Below, one piece after another: positions 7,462 to 44,091 of a stretch of DNA of 57,268 nucleotides (position 1 is the first letter of the stretch; each line of letters opens with the position of its first letter). The stretch spans positions 1-57,268 of the forward strand of contig JAQBNL010000024.1 of the NCBI GenBank assembly GCA_028288585.1, written 5' to 3'. Under the pieces are notes generated by a model. The model saw nothing but the letters and a program-made list of their open reading frames with translations, searched no databases and was not told the DNA's origin. Made by a program: the position numbers and the translations under genes. Origin of the DNA: Chitinophagaceae bacterium. Lineage in GTDB: Bacteria; Bacteroidota; Bacteroidia; Chitinophagales; Chitinophagaceae.

Positions 7462-7527
7462 CTTATAAAATTATGAGATAATAAATTGAATAATTGGCTG
7501 CAAGTTTGTAACCACAATAGAAAAATT

Positions 7528-8595: not shown

Positions 8596-8609
8596 TGCTC
8601 ACTCACCAC

Positions 8610-9653: not shown

Positions 9654-9724
9654 TTCTTTTTTATTTAGAAGAACAAATGTAAGTTCTAAACTAATGAGAT
9701 AAATAATTTTATACAATCATAAAA

Positions 9725-9754
9725 AAAGATCCATGCAAGTAAGCATGAATCTTT
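9725..9754 (-). terminator. Terminator for the lipoprotein gene at 9793
   Basis: AAAGATCCATGC pairs with GCATGAATCTTT with one mismatch and a 6-base loop. On the minus strand it is followed by seven T, so it stops transcription from 10257-9793 before the dehydrogenase. Confidence 0.65.
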
Positions 9755-9792
9755 ATTTATATTGGATGTTTTCTTTTTGGGTGTATTCTTTA

Positions 9793-10257
9793 TTAATATC
9801 TTCCTTCTTTTTTATCCTTTGATCTGCCTAATATATAACCGCCTCCTGCTCCAAGAACACCACCAATCACTGCGCCTTTTACCTTGTTCTTACTTATTAC
9901 TGCGCCTACTACTGCACCTCCAACTCCGCCAATGGCTGCATTTTTTGCGGCATGGCTCCAGCCTCTTCTCCTGGTTACTGTAGTGGTTTGGCCAGAACCT
10001 GTATTACGGTTATTAGATGTGCTGGCAGTACTCCTGTTATTATTGGTGTTTGTTGTCCGCCTGTTAGCAACGGCTGTATTTTGATTTCCATTAGTTAATG
10101 TAGTGGTTATTACACTCCCGGTGTCAGTCATCATATTACTTTTGTACATGCCTGTTGTATCTGTTAATATCATATCCTTTTTGGTATCCAGATCTGTTTT
10201 AGAGTTGCAAGCAACAAAAATTGAAGCAACCATAAAACAGTGTAAAATCTTTTTCAT
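9793..10257 (-). CDS. Glycine-zipper lipoprotein (YMGG-like)
   Basis: The 154-residue protein has a lipoprotein signal (MKKILHCFMVASIFVAC, lipid Cys at 17). Next comes DLDTKKDMILTDTTGMYKSN, then a Thr/Asn-rich linker, and a C-terminal glycine zipper (AAIGGVGGAVVGAVISKN, GAVIGGVLGAGGGYILG) of the kind that inserts in or packs against membranes. It is a clear paralogue of the protein at 14438-15067, which shares the LTDTTGMYKSN block and the zipper. It is divergent from an NTF2-like lipoprotein gene, an arrangement repeated at the second copy. Function unknown; outer-membrane anchoring is an inference. Confidence 0.8.
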   Translation of the reverse strand: MKKILHCFMVASIFVACNSKTDLDTKKDMILTDTTGMYKSNMMTDTGSVITTTLTNGNQNTAVANRRTTNTNNNRSTASTSNNRNTGSGQTTTVTRRRGWSHAAKNAAIGGVGGAVVGAVISKNKVKGAVIGGVLGAGGGYILGRSKDKKEGRY

Positions 10258-10286
10258 ATCTGTAGTTTTTAGTTATCCTATGTAAT

Positions 10287-10301
10287 GAGAAAACTGTGCC
10301 A
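10287..10301 (-). promoter_or_regulatory. Weak TGGCAC-type box before the glycine-zipper gene
   Basis: On the minus strand TGGCACAGTTTTCTC lies 29 bases before the start. The -24 half is perfect for sigma-54, but the -12 half is not. It overlaps a short palindrome (TGCCA gag TGGTA) in the divergent region. Confidence 0.25.
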
Positions 10302-10491
10302 GAGTGGTATTTTTTAGTAAACTTTAAGGAGACAGTTATACAGATTTTATACCCTATCTGTTGATTTTCAGCATCTTGTGCCAATGAAAAATATTGCTAT
10401 ATATTTATACAGGTATATATCCTTATCCTTTTAATCCTATTGGCCGTAATCACCTTTGTAAAATTTTATTAAACACTAAAACAACTTGATT

Positions 10492-11040
10492 ATGAAAAAG
10501 GTCATTTTTTTATCCCTGGTAATTTTCTCTGTTGCATCGTGTAAAGATGATGCAGGCACAAGTACAACAGCCTCCAAAGATTCTACAGCAGCAGCAACAA
10601 CAGATTCTATGAGCTATCCATACACTATTAAACACCCTGATGCATGGGTACCGGGCGACAGGCAACACACCATGAATGTTTTAAAAGCATTAAAGGCCTA
10701 TGAAAATGGAAATGTTGATGAATGCGTTTCTTATTTTGGAGATAGTATAACGGTTCGGTTTGATGAAATGGATGCAAAGCTTTCTAATGACAGCCTTAAA
10801 GCATTCTTTAAAAAAGGACGTTCGATGAATAAAAGTGTGCGGATAGAAATGTATGATTGGGAATCAGTAAAAAGTAAAGCTACTAATGAAGAATATGTAA
10901 GCCTGTGGTATAAGCAGGTATGGGAAGCTAACAATGGCAAAAAAGATTCGCTATCTGTAATGGATGATCTTAAAATAGAAAAAGGAAAAATAGTAGAGCT
11001 GGATGAAAAAACAAGAAAGTATCCTAAAAAGAAAGTCTGA
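10492..11040 (+). CDS. Lipoprotein with NTF2/SnoaL-like domain
   Basis: The 182-residue protein has a lipobox signal ending VASC (Cys at about 18), a Thr/Ser/Ala-rich linker, then an alpha-beta domain of about 130 residues resembling the NTF2/SnoaL fold (LKALKAYENGNVDECVSYF, SLWYKQVW, IEKGKIVELDEKTRKYP). ATG 10492 is preferred over a TTG six bases upstream. It is paralogous to the proteins at 15259 and, more distantly, 15895. It is probably anchored in an envelope membrane; its ligand is unknown. Confidence 0.72.
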   Translation: MKKVIFLSLVIFSVASCKDDAGTSTTASKDSTAAATTDSMSYPYTIKHPDAWVPGDRQHTMNVLKALKAYENGNVDECVSYFGDSITVRFDEMDAKLSNDSLKAFFKKGRSMNKSVRIEMYDWESVKSKATNEEYVSLWYKQVWEANNGKKDSLSVMDDLKIEKGKIVELDEKTRKYPKKKV

Positions 11041-11061
11041 ACATTTGCAGAAAATTTTTTT

Positions 11062-11087
11062 AAAGGCACCGCAAAAGCGGTGCCTTT
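11062..11087. terminator. Bidirectional terminator
   Basis: Perfect 11-base stem AAAGGCACCGC/GCGGTGCCTTT with an AAAA loop lies between two convergent genes. T-rich tails exist on both strands. Confidence 0.85.
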
Positions 11088-11097
11088 AATTTTTTGT

Positions 11098-12729
11098 TTA
11101 TCCTGTTACTGAATTTTTAAATTCCGGCGCAGTTCTTTTTTTACTTGCCTGTTCATAAGCATAGGCTACTTTTAAAATTCCCGCTTCATCATAAGCAGTG
11201 CTAAAAAATGAAAGGCCTACAGGTAAATTATGAACAGCGCCCATAGGAACTGTAATGTGCGGATACCCGGCCATTGCAGCAGGCGGGCAAAAATAAAATC
11301 CTGTATCATAATCCCCGTTTACAAGATCGATGCACGGGGCATAACCAATGCTGGTGCCACATATCGCATCAAGCTTGTTTTGCTTCATCATGCTATCTAT
11401 TATGTTGCGTGAGCTGATTGTTTTTGCATGCGCATCTGTATATTCCTTACTATCGAGGCCGCCTTTTTCCTGGCAGCTTTCTAAAATTTCCTGTTTAAAC
11501 CAGGGCATTGCTTTCGCTTCATTTTGTTTATTGAAGGCTATTACATCTGCCAGTGATTTCACTTTTGCATTCGCTGCAGAAAGATATTTATTTACTCCAT
11601 CTTTAAATTCATATTTTAAAACTGTAAGCTCATCATTTCCCAGTTTACCGGTTTCTTTCAACAGTTCTATTTCAACAATTGTTGCTCCCTGTGTTTTTAA
11701 AATTTCTATTGCCTGCTTATATAATCCTGTAACACCCTCGTGCCCGCTTAAAAAAGATTTTTCAATGCCGATTCTTTTTCCTTTTAAACCATTGGCATCC
11801 AGAAAAACTGTATAATCTTTTTGCGATTTTCCTTTGCTTTCATTGGTAACCGGATCTGTACTATCTACACCTGCGAGCACACTTAATAAAATGGCGGCAT
11901 CCTTTACAGTTCTTGCCATTGGCCCGGCAGTATCCTGGGTTGCTGAAATAGGAATAATACCGCTGCGGCTTAATAAGCCCACTGTAGGCTTAATGCCAAC
12001 AATGCCGCAAAATGAAGAAGGCGCAATAACAGAACCATCCGTTTCTGTACCAATGGCAACAGCGCAAAGATTGGCAGCTACTGCCGCTCCCGATCCTGAA
12101 CTGGAACCGCATGGATTACGATCCAGCACATTTGGATTTTTTGTTTGTCCGCCCCTGCTGCTCCATCCGCTGCAGGATCTGGTAGACCGGAAATTTGCCC
12201 ACTCACTCAGATTTGTTTTTCCTAACAACACGGCGCCCGATTCTCTTAGTTGATTTATTATAAATGCATCATTTACTGCCTTGTTACCATCCAATGCAAG
12301 TGAACCCGCAGTAGTCATCATATTATCGCCGGTATTAATATTGTCTTTTATTAAAACAGGAATCCCATGCAACGGACCACGAACCTTTCCTGCTTTTCTT
12401 TCGCTGTCCATCTTATCAGCAATGGTTAACGCATCCGGATTTAATTCAATCACTGAATTTATAGCCGGACCTTTTTTATCAATTGTATCAATACGGTCTA
12501 AATATAATTGTGTGACAGACCTGGAGGTATATTCCCCGCTCTGCATTTTTTGCTGCAGTACATCAATCGTTATTTCATTTAATACAAAATCACCGGGAAC
12601 GGCTCCAGGTTTCTTTTTAATTTCACCTGTTTCTTTTTTACTTACAGGATTGTTGCAGGCGGCCACACCAATTGATGCCATAGTTATCCCGGCAAGCGAA
12701 CTGTTCTTAATAAAGCTTCTTCTTTTCAT
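11098..12729 (-). CDS. Exported amidase-signature family protein (Tat-type lipoprotein)
   Basis: The 543-residue protein has a twin-arginine start (MKRRSFIKNSS) followed by a lipobox-like VAAC, so it is probably exported folded and lipid-anchored. The body is the amidase-signature family: catalytic Lys in PVLIKDNINT, the GSSSGSGAAVAANL serine loop, and GTETDGSVIAPSSFCGIVG with the nucleophile region. It resembles GatA-like amidases but has no GatB/GatC partner nearby, so a role in amide hydrolysis outside translation is likely. Substrate unknown. Confidence 0.88.
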   Translation of the reverse strand: MKRRSFIKNSSLAGITMASIGVAACNNPVSKKETGEIKKKPGAVPGDFVLNEITIDVLQQKMQSGEYTSRSVTQLYLDRIDTIDKKGPAINSVIELNPDALTIADKMDSERKAGKVRGPLHGIPVLIKDNINTGDNMMTTAGSLALDGNKAVNDAFIINQLRESGAVLLGKTNLSEWANFRSTRSCSGWSSRGGQTKNPNVLDRNPCGSSSGSGAAVAANLCAVAIGTETDGSVIAPSSFCGIVGIKPTVGLLSRSGIIPISATQDTAGPMARTVKDAAILLSVLAGVDSTDPVTNESKGKSQKDYTVFLDANGLKGKRIGIEKSFLSGHEGVTGLYKQAIEILKTQGATIVEIELLKETGKLGNDELTVLKYEFKDGVNKYLSAANAKVKSLADVIAFNKQNEAKAMPWFKQEILESCQEKGGLDSKEYTDAHAKTISSRNIIDSMMKQNKLDAICGTSIGYAPCIDLVNGDYDTGFYFCPPAAMAGYPHITVPMGAVHNLPVGLSFFSTAYDEAGILKVAYAYEQASKKRTAPEFKNSVTG

Positions 12730-12831
12730 TAATATTAGTATTTACATTTTTTGATACAGCGGGTTTAAATCACAAATGAAAGATAAGAAGATATAAATAT
12801 TAAAAACGGTTCATGGAAACTTTCCTCATTA

Positions 12832-12846
12832 TGGCATAGTTGCTGC
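12832..12846 (+). promoter_or_regulatory. Sigma-54-like box (TGGCAT-N5-CTGC)
   Basis: TGGCATAGTTGCTGC keeps the GG-N10-GC spacing of -24/-12 promoters and ends 21 bases before ATG 12868. Confidence 0.45.
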
Positions 12847-12867
12847 TATTTACCTGCAAACCACTTT

Positions 12868-14379
12868 ATGAAAATAATTTTAACTGCAATTTTTCTATTG
12901 CTTTTTAAGGTAACCAATGCACAGGATCTGCCTGCAGATTCAACATTAAAAAATATTGATACAACTAACTTTGGTAAACCCGATAATACCAATATCAGGA
13001 ATACAAGTATATACGACACTGCAATTGACAGCCGTCCTCATAATAAATATGGCGACCTGCTTAATGATGATCCTGCTTACAATCATAAATATCCCTGGTA
13101 TGTGCCGGCGGTAAAAGTTGTTATATCAGACGCAACTAACTGGGCGGTTAACAAATTTATTTTTCATTATGATTTTGCAAACATCAGCGCACGAACATGG
13201 AAATATAATCTCACGCATGGATGGGAATGGGACAATGACCATTTTGGAACAAACTTTATCGGGCATCCATATTCCGGCAGTTTGTATTTTAATATTGCCC
13301 GTTCCAATGGCTATTCTTTTTGGGGATCTATTCCTTATGCTATTGAAGGAAGCCTGGTATGGGAATATTTTGGAGAAAATACTAAGCCATCAAAAAATGA
13401 TATTATCAATACACCTTTAAGCGGGTTATTGCTGGGAGAAATGCTGTATAGGATAAGCTCTAATATTCTTGATGACAGGGCTACAGGCGCCAACCGTGTT
13501 TGGCGGGAGATACTGGCTGCTGTCATCAGTCCACAACGGGCTTTCAACAGGCTAACACAGGGAAAAATGTTTCGCCATACAACAAAAGAAGTGTACCAGA
13601 AAGAACCATTGAACATTACCATGAGTGCCGGCATGCATAAGATCAATGACAATAATAAATTTGCTACAGGGCAGACAAATTTTACGCTTGACCTCCAGTT
13701 GGATTATGGAGATCCTTTTGAAGTGAGACACCGCAAGCCTTTTGATGTATTCAGGCTGAGAACCGAATCAAGTTTTGGAATATCAAGAAAGATACTGGGC
13801 AATGTTACCGGCTATGGATTGCTGTTTGGAAGAAATGTAGTAAAAGGAGAAAACGGAACACTCATCGGGGGCTTTCAGTATTTTGATTACTGGAACAATA
13901 AAGTGTTTGAGCTTGGCTCTTTAGGATTTGGTGTTGGCGTTATTTCCAGAATTCCATTTTTAAAAGTATCAGAACTATATTCTTCCATCCATTTTGCAGG
14001 AGTGCCGCTGGCGGCCAATAATACAAGCTTCGGCCCCGACACCTCGCTCTTCAGGGATTATAATTTTGGCGGCGGACTGGAAGCTAAAATTGAAGAAACG
14101 TTTAACCTTAAATTTGTAAGCATTGGGTTTAGCGGTTATTATTACTGGCTACAGAACTATGAAAATTTAAAGGGCACCAGTTCAATAGGCATTCTTAAGC
14201 CAAGGGTTATTTTCAATCTCAGCAAATCTATTGGCCTCGGGTTTGAGCACCAGGTGTATTATGTTAACAGGCATTTGAAAAATAACCCAACTCCCACGCT
14301 GCATCTCACAAGAACAGAACAAAAGCTTTTCCTGCAGGTTTTCCTGGAAGACCCAAGACGAAGAGGGCGGTATCATTAA
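12868..14379 (+). CDS. DUF3943 family envelope protein
   Basis: The 503-residue protein has a signal peptide (cleavage near TNAQ). The middle carries the DUF3943 block: HFGTNFIGHPYSGSLYFN, ARSNGYSFWGS, GSLVWEYFGE, PSKNDIINTPLSG and LGEMLYRISSNILDD. The C-terminal half alternates short beta strands and loops, as in an outer-membrane barrel, and ends in an arginine-rich tail. The family has no known biochemical role. It has a TGGCAT-type box upstream and a shared terminator downstream. Confidence 0.8.
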   Translation: MKIILTAIFLLLFKVTNAQDLPADSTLKNIDTTNFGKPDNTNIRNTSIYDTAIDSRPHNKYGDLLNDDPAYNHKYPWYVPAVKVVISDATNWAVNKFIFHYDFANISARTWKYNLTHGWEWDNDHFGTNFIGHPYSGSLYFNIARSNGYSFWGSIPYAIEGSLVWEYFGENTKPSKNDIINTPLSGLLLGEMLYRISSNILDDRATGANRVWREILAAVISPQRAFNRLTQGKMFRHTTKEVYQKEPLNITMSAGMHKINDNNKFATGQTNFTLDLQLDYGDPFEVRHRKPFDVFRLRTESSFGISRKILGNVTGYGLLFGRNVVKGENGTLIGGFQYFDYWNNKVFELGSLGFGVGVISRIPFLKVSELYSSIHFAGVPLAANNTSFGPDTSLFRDYNFGGGLEAKIEETFNLKFVSIGFSGYYYWLQNYENLKGTSSIGILKPRVIFNLSKSIGLGFEHQVYYVNRHLKNNPTPTLHLTRTEQKLFLQVFLEDPRRRGRYH

Positions 14380-16499: not shown

Positions 16500-16913
16500 A
16501 TGGCAGATGTGCATACAAAAGAACAGCGCAGCTATAATATGAGCCGCATTAAAGGCAAGAACACAAAGCCGGAAATGCTGGTGCGTAGATTTTTACATGC
16601 CAATGGATTTCGCTACAAGCTGCATGATAAAACCTTACCCGGCAAACCTGATATTGTTTTACCAAAATATAAGACTGTAATATTTGTGCATGGATGCTTT
16701 TGGCATGGACATGCAGGATGTAAATATTATGTTGTTCCAAAAACAAGAACTCAATGGTGGCTGAATAAAATTAATGGCAACATTGCAAATGATACCAAAG
16801 CCATTAAAGCATTAAAGAAAGAAGGCTGGAAAATTATTAATTTATGGGAGTGTAATCTCAAACCACTAAAGATTGAAAAAGCACTAAATACACTTCTCAA
16901 AAAACTTTCCTAA
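16500..16913 (+). CDS. vsr: Very short patch repair endonuclease (Vsr-like)
   Basis: The 137-residue protein matches the Vsr family: MSRIKGKNTKPEMLVRRFLH, then PGKPDIVLPKYKTVIFVHGC with the catalytic Asp, and FWHGHAGCKYY with the zinc-binding residues. Vsr nicks next to T:G mismatches made when 5-methylcytosine deaminates, and usually travels with a C5 methyltransferase; one follows at 17284. It has its own promoter box and a terminator upstream, so it may be expressed separately from the operon. A restriction role for Vsr-fold enzymes is also possible. Confidence 0.9.
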   Translation: MADVHTKEQRSYNMSRIKGKNTKPEMLVRRFLHANGFRYKLHDKTLPGKPDIVLPKYKTVIFVHGCFWHGHAGCKYYVVPKTRTQWWLNKINGNIANDTKAIKALKKEGWKIINLWECNLKPLKIEKALNTLLKKLS

Positions 16914-16936
16914 CAATTTTTTCAAGGTTGTTCAAC

Positions 16937-16966
16937 GTGACTAAAAGCCAATAGACTTTAAGTCAC
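16937..16966. repeat. Inverted repeat between vsr and the controller gene
   Basis: GTGACTAAAAG (16937-16947) and CTTTAAGTCAC (16956-16966) are inverted copies with one mismatch and an 8-base spacer. No T tract follows, so it is either a weak terminator of vsr or a second operator site. Confidence 0.5.
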
Positions 16967-17012
16967 ATAAGATATTATTGTCCACTCAAAATCTTTTTTC
17001 ACAAATCAACAT

Positions 17013-17045
17013 TGTGTCCTAAAACATACCGCTTTTTAGGACACA
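17013..17045. promoter_or_regulatory. Palindromic operator (C-box-like) of the XRE-methyltransferase operon
   Basis: TGTGTCCTAAAA (17013-17024) and TTTTAGGACACA (17034-17045) form a perfect 12-base inverted repeat with a 9-base spacer, ending 17 bases before the controller's ATG. This is where controller proteins of restriction-modification systems bind their own promoter, so autoregulation by the next gene is likely. Confidence 0.7.
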
Positions 17046-17062
17046 CTAAAATATGTTCGTAT

Positions 17063-17287
17063 ATGGAGCTAACAGAAAAGATTGGTAAAAGAATTACCGA
17101 ATTGCGTAAGGCCAAAAAAATCTCCCAGCAAAAATTTTCTTATGAAGCTGACATCGAAAGAAGCTTTCTCACTCATATAGAAAAAGGAAGAAAAAATATT
17201 TCTGTGGGTACCCTGCAAAGGATAACATCTGCACTGCAGATTTCTCTAAAAGATTTTTTTGATTCAAAGGAATTTTCGAAAGTATGA
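17063..17287 (+). CDS. XRE-family controller protein (C-protein-like)
   Basis: The 74-residue protein is a single helix-turn-helix domain: ELRKAKKISQQKFSYEADIERSFLTHIEKG, with the family's RSFLTHIEKGRKNIS recognition region, then TLQRITSALQISLKDFF. Size and position are those of restriction-modification controller proteins. I chose ATG 17063 because an in-frame TTG at 17012 would run through the palindromic operator. Its stop overlaps the methyltransferase start by 4 bases (ATGA), so the two are translationally coupled. Confidence 0.85.
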   Translation: MELTEKIGKRITELRKAKKISQQKFSYEADIERSFLTHIEKGRKNISVGTLQRITSALQISLKDFFDSKEFSKV

Positions 17288-18534
17288 ACACCAGACTAAC
17301 CTATATCGATCTTTTTGCAGGCGCCGGCGGGCTCTCCGAAGGTTTCATAAAAGCTGGTTTCAATCCTGTTGCTCACGTTGAAATGGATGAAGCTGCATGC
17401 TTCACTTTAAAAACAAGGACTGCGTATCATTATTTGAAAAAGAAAAAAAAGTTTGACGAATACGTAAAGTATTTAAAAGGAGATATTGACAGAGCCAGCT
17501 TATATTCATTAATTCCTGAAGATGAAATGAGCAGTGTGATCAATCTGGCTTTAAGTGATGAAAACAATAAAGAAATTTTTAAGAAAATCGATGCCCGTTT
17601 ACAGAATCGCTACGTTGATTTAATTATAGGTGGACCACCATGCCAGGCATATTCTTTAGTAGGGAGAGCCAGATGTGATAATGGAATGAAAGATGACCCC
17701 CGCAATCATTTGTACTTGCAGTATTCAAAATTTTTAAAAAAGTACAAGCCTAAAATGTTTGTATTTGAAAACGTGTTGGGATTGCGGTCTGCAGATGGCG
17801 GTGGATACTTTGAAAAAATGAACGCAGAGTTTAACAAGGTTGGATATGAAGTGAAAGATTTTTTATTGAATGCAAGTGATTTTGGTGTACTGCAAAATCG
17901 CAAAAGGATCATTCTTCTGGGATATAGAAAAGATTTAAATATTACTAAACCTGAAATAAAATCTTCTTTTATTAAACAGTTTAAGGTTCAATCTATTTTT
18001 CAGGATTTACCAAAGCTACAGGCTGGAGAGGGGAAAGATAAGGGTGATCAATACGCCAGCAGAACTAATAAGTATTTAAATACCTCTTACATACGTAATG
18101 GCATAAAAGTGCTTACACAACATGTTAGCAGGCCACATACAGCACAGGATAAAGAGATTTATCGTATAGCTATTAAACTAATGCAAGATGGGGATAGATT
18201 AAACTATATCAATCTGCCGGAGAGATTAAAAACTCATAATAACCGGCATTCTTTTTTTGACAGGTTTAAGGTTGTGAACTCAACAGCCACCGCTGCACAA
18301 ACTGTTGTTGCGCATATTGCCAAAGATGGACATTATTACATCCATCCGGATATAAAACAGAACAGATCGATTAGCATAAGAGAAGCTGCGAGATTGCAAT
18401 CGTTTCCTGACGATTTTTATTTTGAAGGAGTTGTAGAAAGCAAAAATAGAACAGCAGCATTTAAACAAATTGGAAATGCTGTTCCGCCAATATTAGCTTT
18501 TGAAATTGCCCAAAAACTAAAAAACGTCTTATGA
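17284..18534 (+). CDS. DNA (cytosine-5-)-methyltransferase
   Basis: This 416-residue enzyme transfers a methyl group from SAM to C5 of cytosine in a target site. Motif I is DLFAGAGGLSEGF, motif IV GGPPCQAYS with the catalytic Cys, motif VI FVFENVLG, motif VIII QNRKRIILLGY, motif IX around ISIREAARLQSFPDDF, and motif X QIGNAVPPILA. The target-recognition region lies between VIII and IX; the recognition site cannot be read from it. It overlaps the genes on both sides by 4 bases, which places it inside one operon with the controller and the ATPases. Confidence 0.95.
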   Translation: MNTRLTYIDLFAGAGGLSEGFIKAGFNPVAHVEMDEAACFTLKTRTAYHYLKKKKKFDEYVKYLKGDIDRASLYSLIPEDEMSSVINLALSDENNKEIFKKIDARLQNRYVDLIIGGPPCQAYSLVGRARCDNGMKDDPRNHLYLQYSKFLKKYKPKMFVFENVLGLRSADGGGYFEKMNAEFNKVGYEVKDFLLNASDFGVLQNRKRIILLGYRKDLNITKPEIKSSFIKQFKVQSIFQDLPKLQAGEGKDKGDQYASRTNKYLNTSYIRNGIKVLTQHVSRPHTAQDKEIYRIAIKLMQDGDRLNYINLPERLKTHNNRHSFFDRFKVVNSTATAAQTVVAHIAKDGHYYIHPDIKQNRSISIREAARLQSFPDDFYFEGVVESKNRTAAFKQIGNAVPPILAFEIAQKLKNVL

Positions 18535-20792
18535 GTATTGACATTATTGACCAAGGCTATTATAAAATAAAACCCGCAGGAAGACATATTATAACTATAG
18601 GAAGAGATTTAATTAAAGATAAATATGCAGCAATTGTTGAACTAGTAAAAAATTCTTACGATGCCGATTCTCCATATTGTAAGGTTTCCCTTTTGCCTTT
18701 CATAAAAGAAGTAATCATAAACGAAATCACAACCTCGAAGAAAGGTATTAGAATTGAAATTAAAGATGAAGGTCATGGAATGGAACTGGATACTGTAATA
18801 AATAAATGGATGGTTCCTTCAACTGACGATAAATTTTTAAGGAAAATAAGCCCTTTAGGAAGAATGATGCAAGGACGAAAAGGTGTTGGAAGATATGCTG
18901 CATCAATGTTAGGTGATGATCTAGTATTAGAAACAATTCATGATTCCGGCTTTTTGACTACTTTATATTTAGTTTGGAAGGACTTTGAAGATGCAAAATA
19001 TCTTGAAGATGTAAATATTCTCATTGAGTCTAAGAAAACAGAAAAAAAACCTGGTACAGATATAATTATTGTAGGTGACGAAAAACATCTAAACGATTGG
19101 ACTTCGAGACAAATACAGAATCTAAGATTTGAATTAAAAAAACTTATCCCACCAATTAATAAAGAAGATGAAAATATAGAGCAGAGTAATAAACCGTTCA
19201 AAATAATATTAGAAATAGGACAGTTTACCCCAGATGGACAAATGATTTTTGGAGATGTTAAGAATGTAGTGGAAGAAATTGAGCCTTATCCATTATTTGA
19301 ACTTTATGATTACCGTATTTCGGGAACAGTTTCACACTTAGGAATTGCAAACTTAACTTTTCATAACAATAGATCACAGGAAGATGTAGAACACATTCAT
19401 GAGTTTAAAATCTTTTTAAATCAAAATTCTTCAAGAAAAAATGAAGAAGCATACTGTGGCAAAATAAAAATCGATTTTCGGGTTTTCGATAGAGATCCAG
19501 CATCTATTGATGGGCTGATTGGAAGAGGATTAAAAGATCCGGTTAGCGGCCAATACGTTGGGAGAAAAGAAGCTAGACTTATTCTCGATAGCTTTAATGG
19601 AATTGGAGTCTATAGGAACAAATTTAGATTAAGACCACTAGGAGATGCAGGATATGACTGGCTAGAGCTTGACAAAGAAAGAGTTCAAAATCCTTCTGTA
19701 AAAATCGGAAGTGATCAAATTATTGGGTTTATTCATATTCAATCTGAAGAAGACTCAGGATTAGAAGAAAAAAGCGCAAGAGATGGACTGAAAGAGACAC
19801 CCCAATATTTTGGACTACAAGAAATATGTAAACAAGTTCTATTAAGACTTGAACAAAGAAGATTTATTTATAGAAAGAATATTGGTTTAGGAAGAAGCAA
19901 CCGGAATCTTGAAGACAAAATCAACACTCTTTACAATTTTGCAGAACTTAAAGAGAAAATAAATGTTGAATTGGAAGCAAGTGGAATTGGAAAGGAGGAA
20001 AAAGAAAAAATAAATAATTTAATAACTGAAAAAGAACAAAAAAGCAGTAAGGTCGCGGAGGAATTAAAACAAGCAATTGCACAATATCAAGGGCAGGCTA
20101 CAGTTGGGAAAATCGTAAATGTAATATTACACGAAGGTCGAAAACCGTTAGGGTATTTTAAAAATCAAATACCCCTGATAAACGAATGGAGAGAAGAACT
20201 TAAAGAAGAATATAATATAGAAACATTAGAAAAAATTGTTGATCGTTTAGCTGTTCTCGATGAACAATCAAATATTTTTATTAAGTTATTTGCTAAACTA
20301 GACCCACTTTCTTCTAGAAAAAGAGAACCCAAAAAGGATTTTTTACTACGAACAGTACTTGAAAATATTAAAGATGTCTTTTTACAAGAATTAGAGGCCC
20401 AAGAAATTTCGTACAATATACAATGTGATTTGCTACAAACCTGTTATGGTTGGAAAGAAGATTTCTATATAACATTTACCAATCTAGTCGATAATAGTAT
20501 TTACTGGTTTAAAAGTCCAACAAATCATCCTAAGGAAATTCATTTAAAGGTTTATGAAGAAGATGATTTGCTAATCATCGAATATAAAGATAATGGCCCG
20601 GGGATTGAAAAACATTTAATAGACTCTCAAATAATTTTTGAACCTGAATTTAGCGGTAAAACAGGAACAAGTGGTACAGGTTTAGGATTAGCAATTTCAG
20701 GAGAAGCCCTTGCCCGCAATGATGCAATTATAAAAGCAATTTATAATGAAACAGGTGCTTTTTTTAAAATAGAAATTAAAAACACCAAATAA
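18531..20792 (+). CDS. Double-GHKL ATPase protein: MORC/Hsp90-like N-terminus, histidine-kinase-like C-terminus
   Basis: The 753-residue protein has two ATP-binding modules. The N-terminal one carries ELVKNSYDAD (E37, N41), DEGHGM (79-84) and GRKGVGR (115-121), as in MutL, Hsp90 and MORC ATPases. Around residues 480-520 comes a charged coiled coil, then LHEGRKPLGYF with His534, an H-box-like motif. The C-terminal kinase-type ATPase has NLVDNS (651), DNGPGI (687) and GTSGTGLGLAI. I see no membrane segment, so it is cytoplasmic. A receiver-domain gene follows 2 bases later, which suggests phosphotransfer. Joining the two ATPase types in one chain is unusual; the ligand is unknown. Confidence 0.78.
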   Translation: MSIDIIDQGYYKIKPAGRHIITIGRDLIKDKYAAIVELVKNSYDADSPYCKVSLLPFIKEVIINEITTSKKGIRIEIKDEGHGMELDTVINKWMVPSTDDKFLRKISPLGRMMQGRKGVGRYAASMLGDDLVLETIHDSGFLTTLYLVWKDFEDAKYLEDVNILIESKKTEKKPGTDIIIVGDEKHLNDWTSRQIQNLRFELKKLIPPINKEDENIEQSNKPFKIILEIGQFTPDGQMIFGDVKNVVEEIEPYPLFELYDYRISGTVSHLGIANLTFHNNRSQEDVEHIHEFKIFLNQNSSRKNEEAYCGKIKIDFRVFDRDPASIDGLIGRGLKDPVSGQYVGRKEARLILDSFNGIGVYRNKFRLRPLGDAGYDWLELDKERVQNPSVKIGSDQIIGFIHIQSEEDSGLEEKSARDGLKETPQYFGLQEICKQVLLRLEQRRFIYRKNIGLGRSNRNLEDKINTLYNFAELKEKINVELEASGIGKEEKEKINNLITEKEQKSSKVAEELKQAIAQYQGQATVGKIVNVILHEGRKPLGYFKNQIPLINEWREELKEEYNIETLEKIVDRLAVLDEQSNIFIKLFAKLDPLSSRKREPKKDFLLRTVLENIKDVFLQELEAQEISYNIQCDLLQTCYGWKEDFYITFTNLVDNSIYWFKSPTNHPKEIHLKVYEEDDLLIIEYKDNGPGIEKHLIDSQIIFEPEFSGKTGTSGTGLGLAISGEALARNDAIIKAIYNETGAFFKIEIKNTK

Positions 20793-20794
20793 AC

Positions 20795-21865
20795 ATGGAA
20801 ATACTTAACCTGCTAATCATTGAGGATGAAGATACTCAACTGCAAGTCTATAATGATTCAATAGACCAATTCAACAAAAAAAACGAGATTAAAATAAAAC
20901 AAACAATTTGTAAGAATTTTGAGGAAGGTGAATCAGCATTAAAATCTCCTTTTTATGATGCGGCCTTAATTGATTTAAAACTTTCAAATAGTGATGATTT
21001 AGAAGGAAAAAAATTAGTTGAAACTGTTTACAAAAAAATTAGAATCCCCATTTTTATTGTTTCAGGCAGCATAGCTCAAATTGATGATATACCAGAAAAT
21101 GCATTATTGAAAAAGAGGCTAAGGACAGAACTAATGTCAGGCATCTTATCTGAGATTTTCGACATTTATAAAACAGGAATTACGAGTTTTTTAAGACCCG
21201 ATGGACTAATGGATCAAAAACTAACTGAAATATTTTGGAATAATTTATCACAAGATCTTAGTATTTGGATAAAACATAATAATCAAAGTACTCTTTTAAG
21301 ATATATTCTTTCACATTTTCACGAATATCTAGAAATAAATACTGACGGTGATTTTGAAGAATATCATCAACAAGAATTTTATTTATCGCCACCAATTAAA
21401 AAAAATCCCCATACTGGTGATTTAATTCAAATTGAGAATAGGTTGTATTTAATTCTTACGCCTGCTTGTGATATTATAATTAATTATAAAAAAGATGAAA
21501 ACGGGAAATTAATTCCTTTCAGAAAAGCAGAAAATTTAATTTTAGCAGCTGTGAAGGAATTTGACTATAAAGTAATTTGCGCAGACAAGAATAAGGTTTT
21601 ACAAAAGGGAAAAATAAAAGAGTATGTAAAAAACGCTTCGCTAAGATATCATTACTTGCCGCCTTTCAAAAATGAGAATGGTTACTTGATAGATTTTCAA
21701 GATTTATCCTCTGTTTCTTTTAACACTGATTTCAAAAGAGAAGCAACAATTTCTTCCCCATTTATTAAAGACATTATTTCAAGGTTCGCTAATTACTATT
21801 CGAGACAAGGTCAACCGACTTACAAACAGGATTTATTGGTTGACTATCTATTTGACAAAAAATAA
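20795..21865 (+). CDS. Receiver-domain protein with unassigned C-terminal domain
   Basis: The 356-residue protein begins with a response-regulator receiver domain: acidic cluster IIEDED (8-13), phospho-acceptor Asp60 in ALIDLKL, Ser90 in FIVSGS, and a Lys near 106-107. Residues about 125-356 form a separate domain without a DNA-binding helix-turn-helix. It contains HTGDLIQIENRLYLILTPACD (207-226), where the T-P-x-C-D piece stands out. It is likely the partner of the kinase-like protein 2 bases upstream. The output domain is not one I recognise. Confidence 0.65.
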   Translation: MEILNLLIIEDEDTQLQVYNDSIDQFNKKNEIKIKQTICKNFEEGESALKSPFYDAALIDLKLSNSDDLEGKKLVETVYKKIRIPIFIVSGSIAQIDDIPENALLKKRLRTELMSGILSEIFDIYKTGITSFLRPDGLMDQKLTEIFWNNLSQDLSIWIKHNNQSTLLRYILSHFHEYLEINTDGDFEEYHQQEFYLSPPIKKNPHTGDLIQIENRLYLILTPACDIIINYKKDENGKLIPFRKAENLILAAVKEFDYKVICADKNKVLQKGKIKEYVKNASLRYHYLPPFKNENGYLIDFQDLSSVSFNTDFKREATISSPFIKDIISRFANYYSRQGQPTYKQDLLVDYLFDKK

Positions 21866-21870
21866 TTTAA

Positions 21871-23823
21871 ATGATTGAATGGCGCTTTAAACCCAACTCT
21901 CGAGATGATATGGATGTTGATCCTATTCAGGGTGAGTTTTTTACCACAAGAGATATTGATAATATTTCTACAGCAGTAGTAAGGGAAGGAATCCAAAATG
22001 CATTAGATGAAAGAAATCGCGGAGAACAAATTGAAACCGTGAAAGTGAGGATATTTCTTTCAGGCGAAAAATATGCATTAAAAAGTGAAGACTATTTGCC
22101 TATGCTTGAAACTTTGCAACCACATTTAAAAGCAAAGAGTTCCGGGTTACTTTCGCTCCCCGATTTTACCCAACCGATGAAGTTTCTTGTATTTGAAGAT
22201 TCGAATACAAAAGGTCTTGAAGGGGATCCTGAAGAGTTCTATGTAGAAAATAATAACGATAAAAATCCTCATAACTTTTATTATTTCTGGAGGAATGTGG
22301 GCCGGTCTGGCAAAACAGATGATAAACTTGGCAGATGGGGTCTTGGTAAAACAGTTTTCCCGGCATCTTCCAGAATCAATACTTTTTTCGGATTGACTGT
22401 CAGAAAAAGTGATCAGCGTAAAATGTTGATGGGGCAATGCATTCTGCGTATTCATAACAGGGAAGATGCAAAAAAACAGGAATGTGGTTACAGGCCTTAT
22501 GGTGTTTTTGGGAATTATAAAAGTGCGGATTGCTTTGCAGTCCCGATAGAAGAGAATAATGAGATTTCCAGGTTTGAAGATTTGTTTAAACTTGAAAGAA
22601 AACAAAATTCAGGACTTTCTTTAGTGATACCCTTTTGCTCTGAAGAAATAACGATTGATCATCTTGCTTATTCAGTTATTGAACAATACTTCTACCCTAT
22701 TCTGGAAGGCAAACTGGAAGTTGAGATAACTGAAGAAGATCACACCATTCTTCTTGAAAAAAATTCTATTCAGGAATCAATCGATAAAATCAATTTTAAT
22801 AATGTTGGTAGCGGTGATGATAAAAGAATAAAGACAAAAGAAAGTCTCCTACGACTATTTGATTTTGCAAAATGGACTTTTCAATTACAGGAGGAAGACT
22901 TTTTTAAATTAAAAGAGTTGGATCTGAAACAAAAACCACGGTGGAATAAAAGTTTATTCGAGAATGAAGAAGGAATGAATTTATTTAGAGATAAGTTTGA
23001 GCGCAATGAAAGAATCGCCTTTAAAATTCCCCTGAAGTATCATCCTGTGAATGGCAGTCCTAAAATATGCTGGTATGAGGCATTTCTGGAAAAAGATACT
23101 ACCCTCACAAAACCTGAAAACCTTTTTGTAAGAGATGGAATAACAATATCAGGAATTACTTCTTTGGATAAAGGATTAGTCAGAGGTGTAGTTATTATTC
23201 ATGATATTAACCTTGCCAGGATGCTTGGTGATTCTGAAAATCCGGCACATACTGAATGGCAGGCTGATTCCAGAAATTTTAAAGGAAAATATGTTGACGG
23301 AAGGGAAACACTCGTATTTGTAAAAAGCACATTAAAAGCTTTATATGAAAAACTGCAAAGGCCTATAGAAGGAATTCAAAAAGATTTATTGATTGATTTC
23401 TTTTCAATACCTATTGATACACCTGAAGAACAAAAGGAGAAGAAATCTCCTGATTATACTAAGGAGGGTGAAAAAGAAGTTGATGATCCGGAGATTCCAA
23501 TGCAGCCGGGCAAAAAAAGACCTTTACTTATTCAGCAAATTACTTCCGGACTAAGAATTTATAAAAATCCGAATGCAGATGAATTGCCGGAAAGCATACG
23601 ATTAAAACTGGGATATGATGTACCAAGAGGAAATCCAATTAATAGTTATCAGGAACTTGATTTTGATGTTTCCAAATCACCGATAGTAGTTGCTTCTTCG
23701 GGTGTTTATTTTACAAAGAAAGAAAAGAATGAGCTTGAGTTTGATATTGAAGATAAATCACACTTTGAAATACAACTTACCGGCTTTGATGAAAAACGGG
23801 ATTTATTTTTAAAACTTCAGTAA
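21871..23823 (+). CDS. GHKL (MORC/MutL-like) ATPase
   Basis: The 650-residue protein has the Bergerat ATP-fold motifs: VVREGIQNALDER (E39, N43), FEDSNTKGL (D110, G115) and GRWGLGK (154-160). The rest has no recognised domain; residues about 510-550 are a charged linker (EEQKEKKSPDYTKEGEKE) before a beta-rich C-terminus. GHKL ATPases of this kind have been described in restriction-modification operons with C5 methyltransferases. It sits 5 bases after the receiver gene, and the next gene begins directly after its stop, so co-translation and a shared complex are likely. Confidence 0.72.
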   Translation: MIEWRFKPNSRDDMDVDPIQGEFFTTRDIDNISTAVVREGIQNALDERNRGEQIETVKVRIFLSGEKYALKSEDYLPMLETLQPHLKAKSSGLLSLPDFTQPMKFLVFEDSNTKGLEGDPEEFYVENNNDKNPHNFYYFWRNVGRSGKTDDKLGRWGLGKTVFPASSRINTFFGLTVRKSDQRKMLMGQCILRIHNREDAKKQECGYRPYGVFGNYKSADCFAVPIEENNEISRFEDLFKLERKQNSGLSLVIPFCSEEITIDHLAYSVIEQYFYPILEGKLEVEITEEDHTILLEKNSIQESIDKINFNNVGSGDDKRIKTKESLLRLFDFAKWTFQLQEEDFFKLKELDLKQKPRWNKSLFENEEGMNLFRDKFERNERIAFKIPLKYHPVNGSPKICWYEAFLEKDTTLTKPENLFVRDGITISGITSLDKGLVRGVVIIHDINLARMLGDSENPAHTEWQADSRNFKGKYVDGRETLVFVKSTLKALYEKLQRPIEGIQKDLLIDFFSIPIDTPEEQKEKKSPDYTKEGEKEVDDPEIPMQPGKKRPLLIQQITSGLRIYKNPNADELPESIRLKLGYDVPRGNPINSYQELDFDVSKSPIVVASSGVYFTKKEKNELEFDIEDKSHFEIQLTGFDEKRDLFLKLQ

Positions 23824-24585
23824 ATGATTCGCAGATTTAATTATACAGGCCGGGTGAAAATTCCGAGAAGCAGGGTAGATATTTCCATGTTTAAAGACAA
23901 CGAAGGGAAATACTTCAAGGCTAACATTAATTTTGAAGGACTTGATCTGCCACCGGATGCCAAAGTATATATTGAACCCAATTACAAAGGAGTATATCAA
24001 CGATTTTATTTTGGAACTGTTTCTCATTTTAAAGAACCGGAAAATACAAGGCTTAATGAATTACCTGAAACTGAACTGGCATACTTTGATGTATCAATCG
24101 TTGACGAGCAAAGTAAGGTTGGTCTACTATTAGGAAAGGCTAAGGGAATTGCAATAAGTACTGACGGTTTGCCAAATGACAGGATGCCCCTGTTATATGT
24201 TAACCCTACTGATTTAAAAAATCAATTCTGGAAACTCACCTTCGATTCAAGCGATGATAGCAGACCAACATTAGAAATAAATAAAAACATTCCTGAACTG
24301 TATGAAATGGTAAGGAATGATATTAAGTTCATAAGCCTGGTTTATCCGGCCGCATTTCGTGGTGTACTTATAAAAATTATTGAGGAAGGGGAATTTGATA
24401 CAGGGACAGATTCATGGATATCTCAATGGCTAAAATTTCTGAGCATATCATTAGGCATTAAATCACTTCCGGATATAGATACTGAAAATGGAGTACTTAC
24501 TCCCGAACAGGAAATGTGGATCGACGAGTGTGTAAATGAGTATTGTAAAAAGCTTCAATTATTTGAAAAATTCACAGCACAATGA
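23824..24585 (+). CDS. Conserved-looking hypothetical protein of the island
   Basis: The 253-residue protein starts at the base after the preceding stop codon. The N-terminal 100 residues are beta-rich (NYTGRVKIPRSRVDISMF, YFDVSIVDEQSKVGLLLG) and could be a small barrel. The C-terminal half is helical (ISQWLKFLSISLGIKSL, EMWIDECVNEYCKKL). I see no nuclease, helicase or membrane motif. Tight coupling to the GHKL ATPase suggests an accessory subunit. I do not recognise the family. Confidence 0.6.
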   Translation: MIRRFNYTGRVKIPRSRVDISMFKDNEGKYFKANINFEGLDLPPDAKVYIEPNYKGVYQRFYFGTVSHFKEPENTRLNELPETELAYFDVSIVDEQSKVGLLLGKAKGIAISTDGLPNDRMPLLYVNPTDLKNQFWKLTFDSSDDSRPTLEINKNIPELYEMVRNDIKFISLVYPAAFRGVLIKIIEEGEFDTGTDSWISQWLKFLSISLGIKSLPDIDTENGVLTPEQEMWIDECVNEYCKKLQLFEKFTAQ

Positions 24586-25307
24586 GCAATCAATTTTCTA
24601 TTCGCATTTTTAATGATGAAGGGCTTAATGAATTTGAAAGAATAATTAATGAGATAAGAAATAATGATTTAAAAAGCGTTTCTGATGATCTGCTCATTAA
24701 CGAAAAGTATTCGACGGTATTTGAACCTGTCATTAACTTAGAAAAAGTCGACTATAAAAATAAGAATGAACTCGTTCCATACATTGTTGAAAAATTGGAT
24801 TTAAAAATTAATAAGCACCTCTATTTTAACAAGGGACTTTGGTCATGGCTGGCTGCTTTCTATTTTGACAACATTTGTCCTCAGGATAGTAATGGAAAAA
24901 GAAAAGTAAATGAAACTGCTTTCTACATTTTAAGAGATCCTAAAAATTATACAAAATATTATCGCCATCTATTGGCTTATCCATGCAGAATTTTTTCTGA
25001 ATTAGATGACTCGGCAAAAATATTTTTAATAGGAAGTTTTTTAAAAAGAGGAGAAATAACAGAACAGTTTGGAGCATATCAGGAAATTGCATTGAATAAA
25101 GGTATTCTGGATGCCGCCAATATTCTGTATTGGGATGATGAAACAAAAAACCTTAAACGTGGTGCGGCAGGCAAAGGTGGAGGTTCCGCCAGAAGATTAG
25201 TAAGAATTATCAGGCAATATCAACTTACGTATGATCTTAATTCAATGCCCGGAAATGAGATTGTAGACTTACTTCCTAATGAATTTTCGAAATGGGTTAA
25301 TAATTAA
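24582..25307 (+). CDS. Unassigned protein, possibly DUF6339-like
   Basis: The 241-residue protein overlaps the previous gene by 4 bases. Its centre has GLWSWLAAFYFDNICP, then YTKYYRHLLAYPCRIF, and a glycine/basic stretch GAAGKGGGSARRLVRIIRQY followed by LLPNEFSKW. The pattern LWxWL...YYRHLL...GSARRL...LPxEF recalls a family I believe is called DUF6339, but I cannot confirm it. No known catalytic site is visible. The basic GKGGGSARR segment might contact nucleic acid, which is an inference. Confidence 0.58.
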   Translation: MSNQFSIRIFNDEGLNEFERIINEIRNNDLKSVSDDLLINEKYSTVFEPVINLEKVDYKNKNELVPYIVEKLDLKINKHLYFNKGLWSWLAAFYFDNICPQDSNGKRKVNETAFYILRDPKNYTKYYRHLLAYPCRIFSELDDSAKIFLIGSFLKRGEITEQFGAYQEIALNKGILDAANILYWDDETKNLKRGAAGKGGGSARRLVRIIRQYQLTYDLNSMPGNEIVDLLPNEFSKWVNN

Positions 25308-25320
25308 TTTTTAAAACCTA

Positions 25321-25974
25321 ATGACAAGACAACAAAGGGCAGCAATTATATTCGTATTGTTTAATACTTCGGACAACACGAGATCGGAAGTTTTAAATAT
25401 GGAAACGCAGCATCTTGGCTTATCTGAAAGTGAAACTGAAACCGAAAAAGAAAATATTGAGAGTTCATTTAATAATGGGATTAAAAATCTTAATTCAAAT
25501 CAGCTGAATAATCTTTTAAAAAGTATTAATGAAAGTGAAATTAATGTAGATGAGATTAAAAGAAAATTGACTTTTTACGGGGTGGAAGAACATTTTCATG
25601 AAAATATCATACAATTTTTTGAAGATTATTTTCAAGCGAATCAATCCATTGATGTTGGTGATTTAGATCGTGAGTTTAAAGGTGTTCAAGTTGCCTCAAG
25701 AGATAATTTTAATACTATTATCAATCAGGGATGGTCAGGGGATTGGCTACTGACTCCAGAAAATATCGATCCTAAAAGGATTCAGATAGCATCCATGAAT
25801 GAGAGCGGGACATTTCCCAGAGGATATTATTTAAACGCTGATATAGTAAGAGTGGAACCTATTAAGTATGGTGATCAGATTAGGTATCGTGTTTTTATCT
25901 CTAATCCAATTGTTATAAATACAGGTAACAGAAACGTAAAGTTTAATGTAAACCCAGTGAGGTATATAAAATAA
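25321..25974 (+). CDS. Last gene of the island operon, unknown function
   Basis: The 217-residue protein begins 13 bases after the previous stop. The N-terminal 110 residues are acidic and Asn/Ser-rich with likely helices (LGLSESETETEKENIESS, NNLLKSINESEINVDEIKRKL). The C-terminal 90 are beta-rich (GWSGDWLLTPENIDPKRI, IRYRVFISNPIVI). No family recognised and no catalytic motif seen. It converges on an XRE gene 10 bases away, which marks the end of the operon. Confidence 0.55.
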   Translation: MTRQQRAAIIFVLFNTSDNTRSEVLNMETQHLGLSESETETEKENIESSFNNGIKNLNSNQLNNLLKSINESEINVDEIKRKLTFYGVEEHFHENIIQFFEDYFQANQSIDVGDLDREFKGVQVASRDNFNTIINQGWSGDWLLTPENIDPKRIQIASMNESGTFPRGYYLNADIVRVEPIKYGDQIRYRVFISNPIVINTGNRNVKFNVNPVRYIK

Positions 25975-25984
25975 CAGTAAATGC

Positions 25985-26392
25985 TTATTTTTTTTGCGCA
26001 ATTACACCTTGCAACATCTCCACCTTTTCTTTTTCGCTCTGCAGCAATCTCTCGTAAAGTTTTTTATTTTCTTCCACAGTTTCCATTAATTTTTCTAAAG
26101 GATTAAATGTACATTGGAAGTTTACTGCAGATGAATTGTCTTTTCCATTATTGTTACTTGCAATAATATTTATTGTTCTTTCCTCATCAAAATTTTTAAT
26201 CGCCTCAACAGGCACTTTCAACAAAGCAGAAATTTTCTCCAGCATATCCTTATCCAGTGCTTCTTTTTGTTCCAGTTGTGATATAGCCTGCTGGCTTAGT
26301 CCAAGGTCATTGGCAAGTACATCCTGCTTAATGCCCAGCATTTCACGTATGCGTTTTACGTTGCGGCCTTCGTGTATGGTTTTTTCTGTCAT
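25985..26392 (-). CDS. XRE-family transcriptional regulator
   Basis: The 135-residue protein has a helix-turn-helix of the XRE type at residues 10-65 (VKRIREMLGIKQDVLANDLGL, SQQAISQLEQKEALDKDML). A loop follows, then a C-terminal coiled coil (EENKKLYERLLQSEKEKVEMLQ) that probably dimerises it. It is divergent from the two genes at 26525-27416 and may regulate them. It is not related in sequence to the controller at 17063. Confidence 0.82.
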   Translation of the reverse strand: MTEKTIHEGRNVKRIREMLGIKQDVLANDLGLSQQAISQLEQKEALDKDMLEKISALLKVPVEAIKNFDEERTINIIASNNNGKDNSSAVNFQCTFNPLEKLMETVEENKKLYERLLQSEKEKVEMLQGVIAQKK

Positions 26393-41432: not shown

Positions 41433-41459
41433 TTTTTTTATTTTAGAGTTTATAAATTA

Positions 41460-43715: not shown

Positions 43716-43728
43716 TGTAAATTTGTCA

Positions 43729-43736
43729 CAAACATA
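43729..43736 (-). promoter_or_regulatory. TAnnTTTG box of the TonB-receptor operon
   Basis: TATGTTTG on the minus strand lies 13 bases before ATG 43715, a normal distance for a short leader. Confidence 0.45.
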
Positions 43737-43967
43737 AAGTAGTTTATTTTATAAACCAAAATATATTTTATTAATCGCTGTTAACATGAGCAATTTGCTA
43801 TAAGCTAAAGAAAATATAAGATCTTGATTATCAATGTCATTTTTTCAAAATATTCCTAAAAAATATATTTACAGGAAACAAATATTTATTCACACCCAAA
43901 AAAAATAATTTGTTTATGTGGCTGCAATTTGTAATTTAGCAATAGAATTTAATGGGTTAGTAAGTAT

Positions 43968-43995
43968 AAAGGGTCAGTAGAAATACTGACCCTTT
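43968..43995. terminator. Orphan terminator in a divergent intergenic region
   Basis: AAAGGGTCAGTA and TACTGACCCTTT form a 12-base perfect stem with a GAAA loop, followed on the plus strand by TTGCTTT. It lies between two divergent genes (43716-44091), where no coding gene needs it. I see no other feature in this stretch apart from A/T-rich sequence. Confidence 0.8.
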
Positions 43996-44091
43996 TGCTT
44001 TGTATGAAGTGCTAAACGCTGAGCAAACTTCATTTGCTTTTTTTAATTCTCACCCAAAACATTCTTTACTTTACGCCAACATAAAAAATAA

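Follow-up and report, generated by a model that had tools for sequence, protein, structure and literature searches.

What kind of system joins a cytosine methylase and a Vsr endonuclease to two GHKL ATPases and a receiver protein, with no recognised restriction enzyme? The question is raised by a locus in a Chitinophagaceae bacterium (GCA_028288585.1, genome 3.3 Mb), on contig JAQBNL010000024.1, of which we analysed positions 1-57,268 of the forward strand (the window). Eight genes, all on the forward strand, are packed between 17063 and 25974, 3' of a Vsr gene, with three 4-base overlaps and gaps of 2, 5, 0 and 13 bases by open reading frame (ORF) coordinates. They encode, in order, an Xre-type controller, a 5-methylcytosine (m5C) DNA methyltransferase (MTase), a histidine kinase (HK)-like protein, a response regulator (RR)-like protein, a second GHKL ATPase and three further proteins, ORF7, ORF8 and ORF9.

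The operon is best described by its parts. A first-pass annotation, made from the sequence alone, had described the tight packing, an m5C modification module with GHKL ATPases, and no recognisable restriction nuclease besides Vsr; the gene coordinates and the family matches (Table 1) agree with it. Pfam, PADLOC and NCBIfam scans of the window proteins found no nuclease domain except Vsr and no cognate type II restriction endonuclease. The restriction-enzyme matches that do appear sit on shared parts: BbrUII/HgiDII (3e-8) on the GHKL N-terminus of the HK, and REase_II (3e-7) on the helix-turn-helix (HTH) of the Xre protein. The same annotation's single eight-gene island does not hold as one system. 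Judged by comparison with related loci, the operon is a composite, in which a recurrent three-gene unit (ATPase-ORF7-ORF8, the triad) stands with an apparently exchangeable HK-RR cassette and an orphan, ORF9. We give an even chance to the reading that this composite is a mobile defence operon of restriction-modification (R-M) type.

A three-gene unit and its partners

The triad is a conserved and rare unit. Two short peptide patterns run against 84,980 species genomes returned 36 loci, a lower bound because only these two peptides were used. In 31 of the 36 fetched loci, profile searches found ATPase, ORF7 and ORF8 contiguous and in order, so the recurrence at unrelated loci that the first-pass annotation had set as a check is borne out for this part of the operon. 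The remaining five are cut or partial (L023, L039, L040, L042) or a distant relative (L043); three loci on the same contigs as others (L005, L006 and L007 with L009, L015 and L016) were counted once. All but two of the 31 come from metagenome-assembled genomes. By record titles they span about eight phyla, which we take to be Bacteroidota, Planctomycetota, Chloroflexota, Hydrogenedentota, Nitrospirota, Acidobacteriota, Pseudomonadota and Verrucomicrobiota. Rarity is evident from the counts: the ATPase occurs in 4 of 294 family genomes, its own included; among 395 phylum genomes ORF8 occurs in four, once as a weak partial match. Pattern scans with the ATPase or ORF8 found no viral copies. A 792 aa protein elsewhere (L052, G754:C5, 7-2385) weakly matches part of the ORF8 profile (3.8e-5; 1.2e-8 in a second search).

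Methylase and Vsr are frequent partners of the triad. Of the 31 loci, 25 have an m5C methylase within 4.2 kb and 22 a Vsr within 5.4 kb. Apart from the MTase, no PF00145 gene was found in the window's genome. Of 12 other triad genomes, six likewise hold a single such gene, at the coordinates of the gene adjoining the triad; one has none and the others several. We inspected 11 of the 31 loci, chosen among those with a methylase of about 520 aa and no gene in the slot between methylase and triad. No sizeable extra gene stands among their ATPase, ORF7, ORF8, methylase and Vsr genes; there are only a 76 aa ORF in L021 and two ORFs, in L024 and L031, that run antisense to ORF7. In eight of these loci, ten neighbouring genes were tested and match no restriction family. 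Their matches are to tRNA synthetase, PIG-L, NADH dehydrogenase, MutS2, Obg, cytochrome bd oxidase, a TPP enzyme, an R3H/ATPase protein, a terminase-like HTH and an AbiEii/DUF6036-type nucleotidyltransferase. From these bare loci and their neighbours, it appears that MTase, Vsr and triad can form a self-contained set with Vsr as its sole recognised nuclease.

The triad ATPase fits the paraMORC2 family. Residues E39, N43, D46, D110, G154, G157 and G159, which we take to be the GHKL motif residues, are invariant in all 31 aligned sequences, as is a later ExxxH (E456, H460). Nine further ATPases, M33A-like or related, were scanned, and each has an ExxxH with W after it; the one MzaB-type protein scanned lacks a late ExxxH. 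The ATPase has no GHKL match in Pfam and no PDB profile match at E 0.1. PMC2292703 gives ExxxH in the S5 domain as the paraMORC2 signature, places the family mainly in cyanobacteria and Gram-positive bacteria, and in 2008 predicted that it loops DNA. Common to that family and the window protein, which we assign on its motif residues, is a GHKL ATPase with ExxxH in R-M neighbourhoods; the accessible part of PMC2292703 describes neither an ORF7-ORF8 triad nor a kinase-receiver slot. The "MORC-like ATPase" of the earlier annotation stands as a GHKL ATPase, and MORC proper was rejected because the protein carries paraMORC2's ExxxH, no search for the S5 motif of MORC itself having been made.

PDC-M33, a PADLOC candidate, is the closest catalogued relative. 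It consists of a GHKL ATPase (PDC-M33A), B, and C (DUF6339), and shares with the triad the A-B-C order, similar protein sizes, a homologous ATPase with ExxxH and the habit of adjoining R-M genes; frequent partnership with m5C MTase and Vsr sets the triad apart. The PDC-M33A model matches the window ATPase distantly, over residues 22-310, whereas the distant relative in Weissella (L043) is recognised throughout (A 2e-136, B 5e-52, C 3e-48), its C being DUF6339. The M33B, M33C and DUF6339 models do not pick up ORF7 and ORF8, which take the B and C positions, and no M33C or DUF6339 row occurs in 29 ORF8 members. Profile comparison with hhalign gave ORF8 a weak collinear match to M33C/DUF6339 over 171 columns (P 0.0066; two controls P 0.19 and 0.24), and ORF8 is a possible distant relative of DUF6339. 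For ORF7 against PDC-M33B the value (P 0.31) was similar to the cross controls (0.19, 0.24), so that link was not detected. With the C link weak and the B link undetected, we class the triad, on profile evidence, as a divergent branch or close cousin of PDC-M33 and not as a member. The earlier annotation could name no matching system; besides PDC-M33, the combination of kinase-receiver pair, m5C methylase and Vsr is already described (PMC8011034).

DUF6339 units keep varied company. On Gram-positive plasmids the DUF6339 gene is preceded by two hypothetical genes, assigned to the A and B positions by place and not scanned against PADLOC, only C being annotated. Neighbours there include Dam methylases with AbiG, dcm with a MutH/Sau3AI-type enzyme, a type I M/S pair accompanied by further methylase and helicase genes, and an AlwI-type enzyme together with an m5C methylase and Vsr. 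In one Bacteroidota genome (G300, L062) an ATPase gene precedes a pair of genes, of which the second is DUF6339 (1e-58), and faces Vsr and a methylase. Some PDC-M33-type and triad relatives carry a small gene (75-91 aa) upstream of the ATPase, which the window does not; proteins from plasmid loci L058 and L061 align with those of triad relatives L006, L007 and L064 over ten invariant columns, no significance having been computed. Directly upstream of the ATPase in L018 (9339-9981), L024 (9320-9960), L029 (8924-9977), L038 (6467-7109) and L062 (9648-10399) lies, by eye, an AbrB and PIN (VapBC-type) toxin-antitoxin-like pair, and in L021 (1298-1696) a PIN gene only. Open-access PMC yielded no paper naming PDC-M33 or DUF6339, subscription papers and preprints falling outside that search.

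An apparently exchangeable kinase-receiver pair

The slot between methylase and triad differs among sister operons. Their ATPases are 68-81% identical to the window's, and before the triad they carry HK-RR, restriction enzymes, or a KaiC-like ATPase with two small genes (Table 1); the GHKL-type enzyme of L009 has in addition a weak HSDR_N_2 row (0.0016) near its C-terminus. Identity between the window and L010, the two HK-RR operons, is 76-81% in the triad, 64% in the methylase, 43% in HK and 35% in RR. In a midpoint-rooted HK tree the window groups with Hymenobacter, Enterobacter and two further HKs, apart from L010 (98/98). In the ATPase tree, rooted likewise, it pairs with L008 (90/91), and L010 falls with restriction-enzyme loci (84/91). 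Mapped on that tree, HK-RR takes two changes, and a single origin occurs in 0% of bootstrap trees. The two trees disagree, and independent entry of HK-RR into the window and L010 operons is the simpler reading; the pair appears to be a separate, exchangeable cassette.

The pair keeps the residues of a two-component system. H534 and the GHKL motif residues of HK are invariant in a six-member alignment, and D60 of RR in six aligned sequences. HK has a PDB profile match to sensor kinases (3e-19), and RR matches solved receivers at 6e-4 and weaker. No match to the receiver model PF00072 passes its curated cut-off: the window protein reaches E 0.05, three of five homologues reach 3e-6 to 7e-5, and the other two do not match at all.

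Kinase-receiver pairs next to m5C methylases and Vsr had already been reported in 2021 (PMC8011034). Those HEF_HK / Response_reg_2 pairs share with ours a kinase built of HATPase_c_3, a DHp-like region and HATPase_c, a receiver gene, an m5C methylase and often Vsr. They differ in length: receivers above the PF19192 cut-off (n=6) have 525-575 aa versus about 340-385 aa in the window's kind, and whole HEF_HK kinases (n=2) 967 and 1001 aa versus about 710-755 aa. We rejected membership on the absence of PF19191 and PF19192 matches, in the window pair (E up to 1) and in five homologous pairs (E up to 0.1); PF19192 has no match in the window's own genome.

HK-RR is usually found with a methylase. 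Double-GHKL kinase, receiver and m5C methylase occur together in the window and in six of seven other HK-RR loci, no methylase being found in L046. One locus (L098) has MTase-HK-RR-Vsr without the triad; in L097 the same cassette adjoins drmA-drmB of DISARM, and in L045 a Vsr-MTase-HK-RR set adjoins an MzaB-type gene or operon. The window's MTase has DrmMII as its best model, which suggested DISARM itself; we rejected that candidate because the operon is without drmA and drmB, PADLOC giving no DrmA or DrmB (DUF1998) row among ten window proteins. Taken across loci, the associations suggest that m5C methylase and Vsr are a shared chassis for varied effector modules, namely restriction enzymes, DISARM, Mza, the paraMORC2 triad and HK-RR.

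Cassette exchange may extend to the chromosomal site. In a genus relative (G934, locus L121) the left-flank gene is 80% identical to the window's and is followed by three opposite-strand ORFs and a Vsr 86% identical to the window's. Past Vsr come a small ORF, a different m5C-methylase-like protein of 438 aa (25% over 224 aa) and one further protein of 447 aa; no triad occurs in the 16 kb inspected. The same flank and similar Vsr, with different genes downstream, suggest exchange at one site. The island's guanine-plus-cytosine content is 0.30-0.35 against 0.38-0.42 in the immediate flanks; values of 0.34-0.35 also occur elsewhere in the window, for example at 41001-45000, and the island is not lower than every part of it. 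ORF9, at the operon end, has no relative in the other 294 class genomes nor in the plasmid and phage collections searched; its single PADLOC row, Cas10 at E 0.003, was taken as noise. The "three unknown proteins" of the first-pass annotation do lack significant family matches, and they are not an equal set, ORF7 and ORF8 belonging to the triad and ORF9 being an orphan.

How the locus might restrict DNA

The composite operon could work as two arms on one modification module. Xre controller, DrmMII-model methylase and Vsr form that module, in which the methylase would mark host DNA and Vsr would repair deaminated 5-methylcytosine. The triad would be the restriction arm: by analogy with MutL and MORC proteins, its ATPase would close as an ATP-driven dimeric clamp on unmarked DNA, with ORF7 and ORF8 as adaptors, and the clamped DNA might be blocked, condensed or passed to a nuclease outside recognised families. 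The kinase-receiver pair would be a second arm, in which the N-terminal GHKL module of HK would sense DNA or methylation state, its C-terminal kinase would phosphorylate D60 of RR, and the RR C-terminal domain would then act. Methyl discrimination, clamp action and phosphorelay are steps that we infer. The locus looks like a modular variant of known R-M defences. Kinase-receiver pairs by m5C methylases and Vsr, paraMORC2 ATPases and the PDC-M33 candidate are already known; unusual here is the minimal core.

Several points weigh against this composite reading. We infer anti-phage defence from families and neighbours. The operon yielded no nuclease motif or fold besides Vsr, for which weak tools may be the reason. 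Methylase is missing near the triad in six loci: four lie close to a contig end on one side or both (L013, L025, L036, L041), and L017 and L019 have long flanks without an m5C methylase near the triad. L019's genome gave no PF00145 gene, other methylase types not having been sought there. The core is not always bare: in L034 Vsr and methylase are separated by a 392 aa gene, and in L022 ORFs separate the methylase from the triad. Kinship with PDC-M33 is thin at its last two genes, the ORF8-DUF6339 match having an HHalign probability of 5.7% and ORF7 showing no detectable link. In the slot comparison, the L013 contig starts within the slot, its methylase unseen, and L012 shows the methylase end only. 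The ATPase forks that part the window from L010 have support of 84-91, and the well-supported branches alone are compatible with one HK-RR origin; shuffled labels are equally scattered on the tree, which has only two HK-RR rows. Instead of having entered independently, HK and RR may have evolved fast.

HK-RR may also be only a regulator, a cytoplasmic two-component system tuning the expression or activity of the adjoining restriction system, a role that PMC8011034 proposed for related pairs. The intact motif residues of HK and RR are consistent with it, as is the range of restriction systems they adjoin, DISARM and the MzaB-type operon being quite different, as a general regulator might. Against it, no restriction gene was recognised alongside MTase-HK-RR-Vsr in L098 (whose neighbours were not searched against Pfam) or alongside HK-RR and methylase on a Campylobacter plasmid, where an AAA ATPase and a DUF4435 gene lie nearby. 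In sister operons, moreover, the slot holds restriction enzymes. We consider a purely regulatory role possible, at clearly less than an even chance.

A conventional answer would be that the triad is an ordinary ATP-dependent restriction enzyme, with ORF7 or ORF8 a nuclease whose fold is not recognised. The alignments held 30 ORF7 and 29 ORF8 sequences, window included, fewer than all triad loci. ORF8 has near-invariant polar residues (Y127, R128, H129, Q162, R204, R205, Q212, E234) and a confident, nearly all-helical AF2 model (mean pLDDT 93) without a PDB or viral (BFVD) fold match at E<=0.001, all of which would suit such an enzyme. Inspection by eye of triad columns conserved at >=90% found no acidic-lysine or other classical nuclease pattern. 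ORF8 has stray PADLOC and Pfam rows only, at E 0.01 or weaker in one of 29 members each (best Glyco_transf_10, 0.011). ORF7, modelled by AF2 with a beta-rich N half and a helical C half (mean pLDDT 85), has no PDB fold match at E<=0.001, no PADLOC match in any of 30 members and stray Pfam rows only (best Cren7, E 0.009, in 4 of 30). Known nucleases were rejected for both proteins for want of any significant family, sequence or fold match, and a nuclease of unrecognised fold strikes us as rather unlikely.

Two independent systems might instead share one methylase by chance insertion, MTase-HK-RR(-Vsr) beside a PDC-M33-like satellite. The halves do occur apart, in L098 and L016, and on Gram-positive plasmids DUF6339 units adjoin many kinds of R-M genes. 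Gaps in the window are only 2-5 bases, however, and L010 has the same order despite apparently independent entry of HK-RR; together these suggest selection for the arrangement, and we think chance insertion rather unlikely. That Vsr itself is the restriction nuclease, activated by the paraMORC2 ATPase where DNA is unmethylated or hemimethylated, much as MutL helps Vsr and MutH in repair, is quite unlikely: Vsr is the sole recognised nuclease of the conserved core, present in most triad loci, and PMC2292703 draws the MutL-Vsr parallel, but the window's Vsr looks canonical for its NCBIfam subfamily, L029 has triad and methylase with no Vsr detected despite long flanks, and in G934 Vsr accompanies another methylase-like gene, the triad being absent from the 16 kb inspected, so that it seems to follow methylases and not the triad.

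A bolder form of the composite reading concerns the minimal core. The five genes for m5C methylase, Vsr, paraMORC2 ATPase, ORF7 and ORF8 would restrict without a classical nuclease, using ATP to clamp or condense unmethylated DNA, as a bacterial counterpart of eukaryotic MORC silencing; HK-RR would be a phosphorylation-gated restriction factor able to replace a restriction endonuclease beside the same methylase clade. We advance this tentatively, as an unlikely proposal. The minimal five-gene locus, with Vsr its only recognised cutter, would make cut-free restriction by prokaryotic MORC relatives directly testable, as well as whether a phosphorelay can drive restriction. The operon joins three loose ends: the PDC-M33 candidate, the kinase-receiver pairs of 2021 and the paraMORC2 family of 2008.

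Features of the window and related loci

Table 1. Genes of the window operon and compared features in related loci.
Feature	Locus	Position	Strand	Evidence or content
Vsr-family endonuclease, 137 aa	window	16500-16913	+	Pfam Vsr 2e-35; NCBIfam vsr 1e-42
Xre-type controller (C protein)	window	17063-17287	+	HTH_3 4e-10; PADLOC Control_protein 9e-15
C5-cytosine DNA methyltransferase (MTase)	window	17284-18534	+	PF00145 DNA_methylase 4.5e-65; PADLOC best model PDLC02649 DrmMII 1e-170
HK-like protein, 753 aa	window	18531-20792	+	N-terminal HATPase_c_3 (GHKL); linker with H534 (LHEGRKP); C-terminal HATPase_c
RR-like protein	window	20795-21865	+	diverged receiver; C-terminal domain without family assignment
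paraMORC2-type GHKL ATPase, triad gene 1	window	21871-23823	+	PADLOC PDC-M33A 1.7e-17; GHKL residues; E456xxxH460
ORF7, triad gene 2	window	23824-24585	+	in 31/31 triad loci; AF2 beta-rich N half, helical C half
ORF8, triad gene 3	window	24582-25307	+	in 31/31 triad loci; AF2 almost all helical
ORF9, orphan at operon end	window	25321-25974	+	matched in own genome only among 295 class genomes
Slot: HK-RR	window, L010			
Slot: GHKL-type enzyme	L009, L011			PADLOC REase_II 1e-40, 1e-41, mainly on GHKL part
Slot: EcoRII-type enzyme	L012			EcoRII-C 2e-64
Slot: KaiC-like ATPase and two small genes	L008	7516-9966		816 aa; no PADLOC row at E 0.001
Slot: KaiC-like ATPase and two small genes	L013	1194-3728		844 aa; no PADLOC row at E 0.001
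Exchange region of G934	L121 (G934:C87)	6551-14097		Vsr, other methylase-like gene, 447 aa protein
Small protein gene 5' of ATPase	L006	8611-8886		
Small protein gene 5' of ATPase	L007	10542-10778		
Small protein gene 5' of ATPase	L064	11653-11880		
Small protein gene 5' of ATPase	L058	3006-3236		
Small protein gene 5' of ATPase	L061	2848-3081		

The Xre gene is listed from its ATG; an alternative TTG start at 17012 is likewise open. A second Xre-type regulator gene, at 25985-26392 on the reverse strand, faces the operon end. A transposase gene of REP-associated type, judged by eye, lies at 54271-54828 of the window. Upstream of the island in genome G198 (L006, 249-7575) are, also by eye, cas1-like genes and recurring-unit ORFs, probably a CRISPR array.

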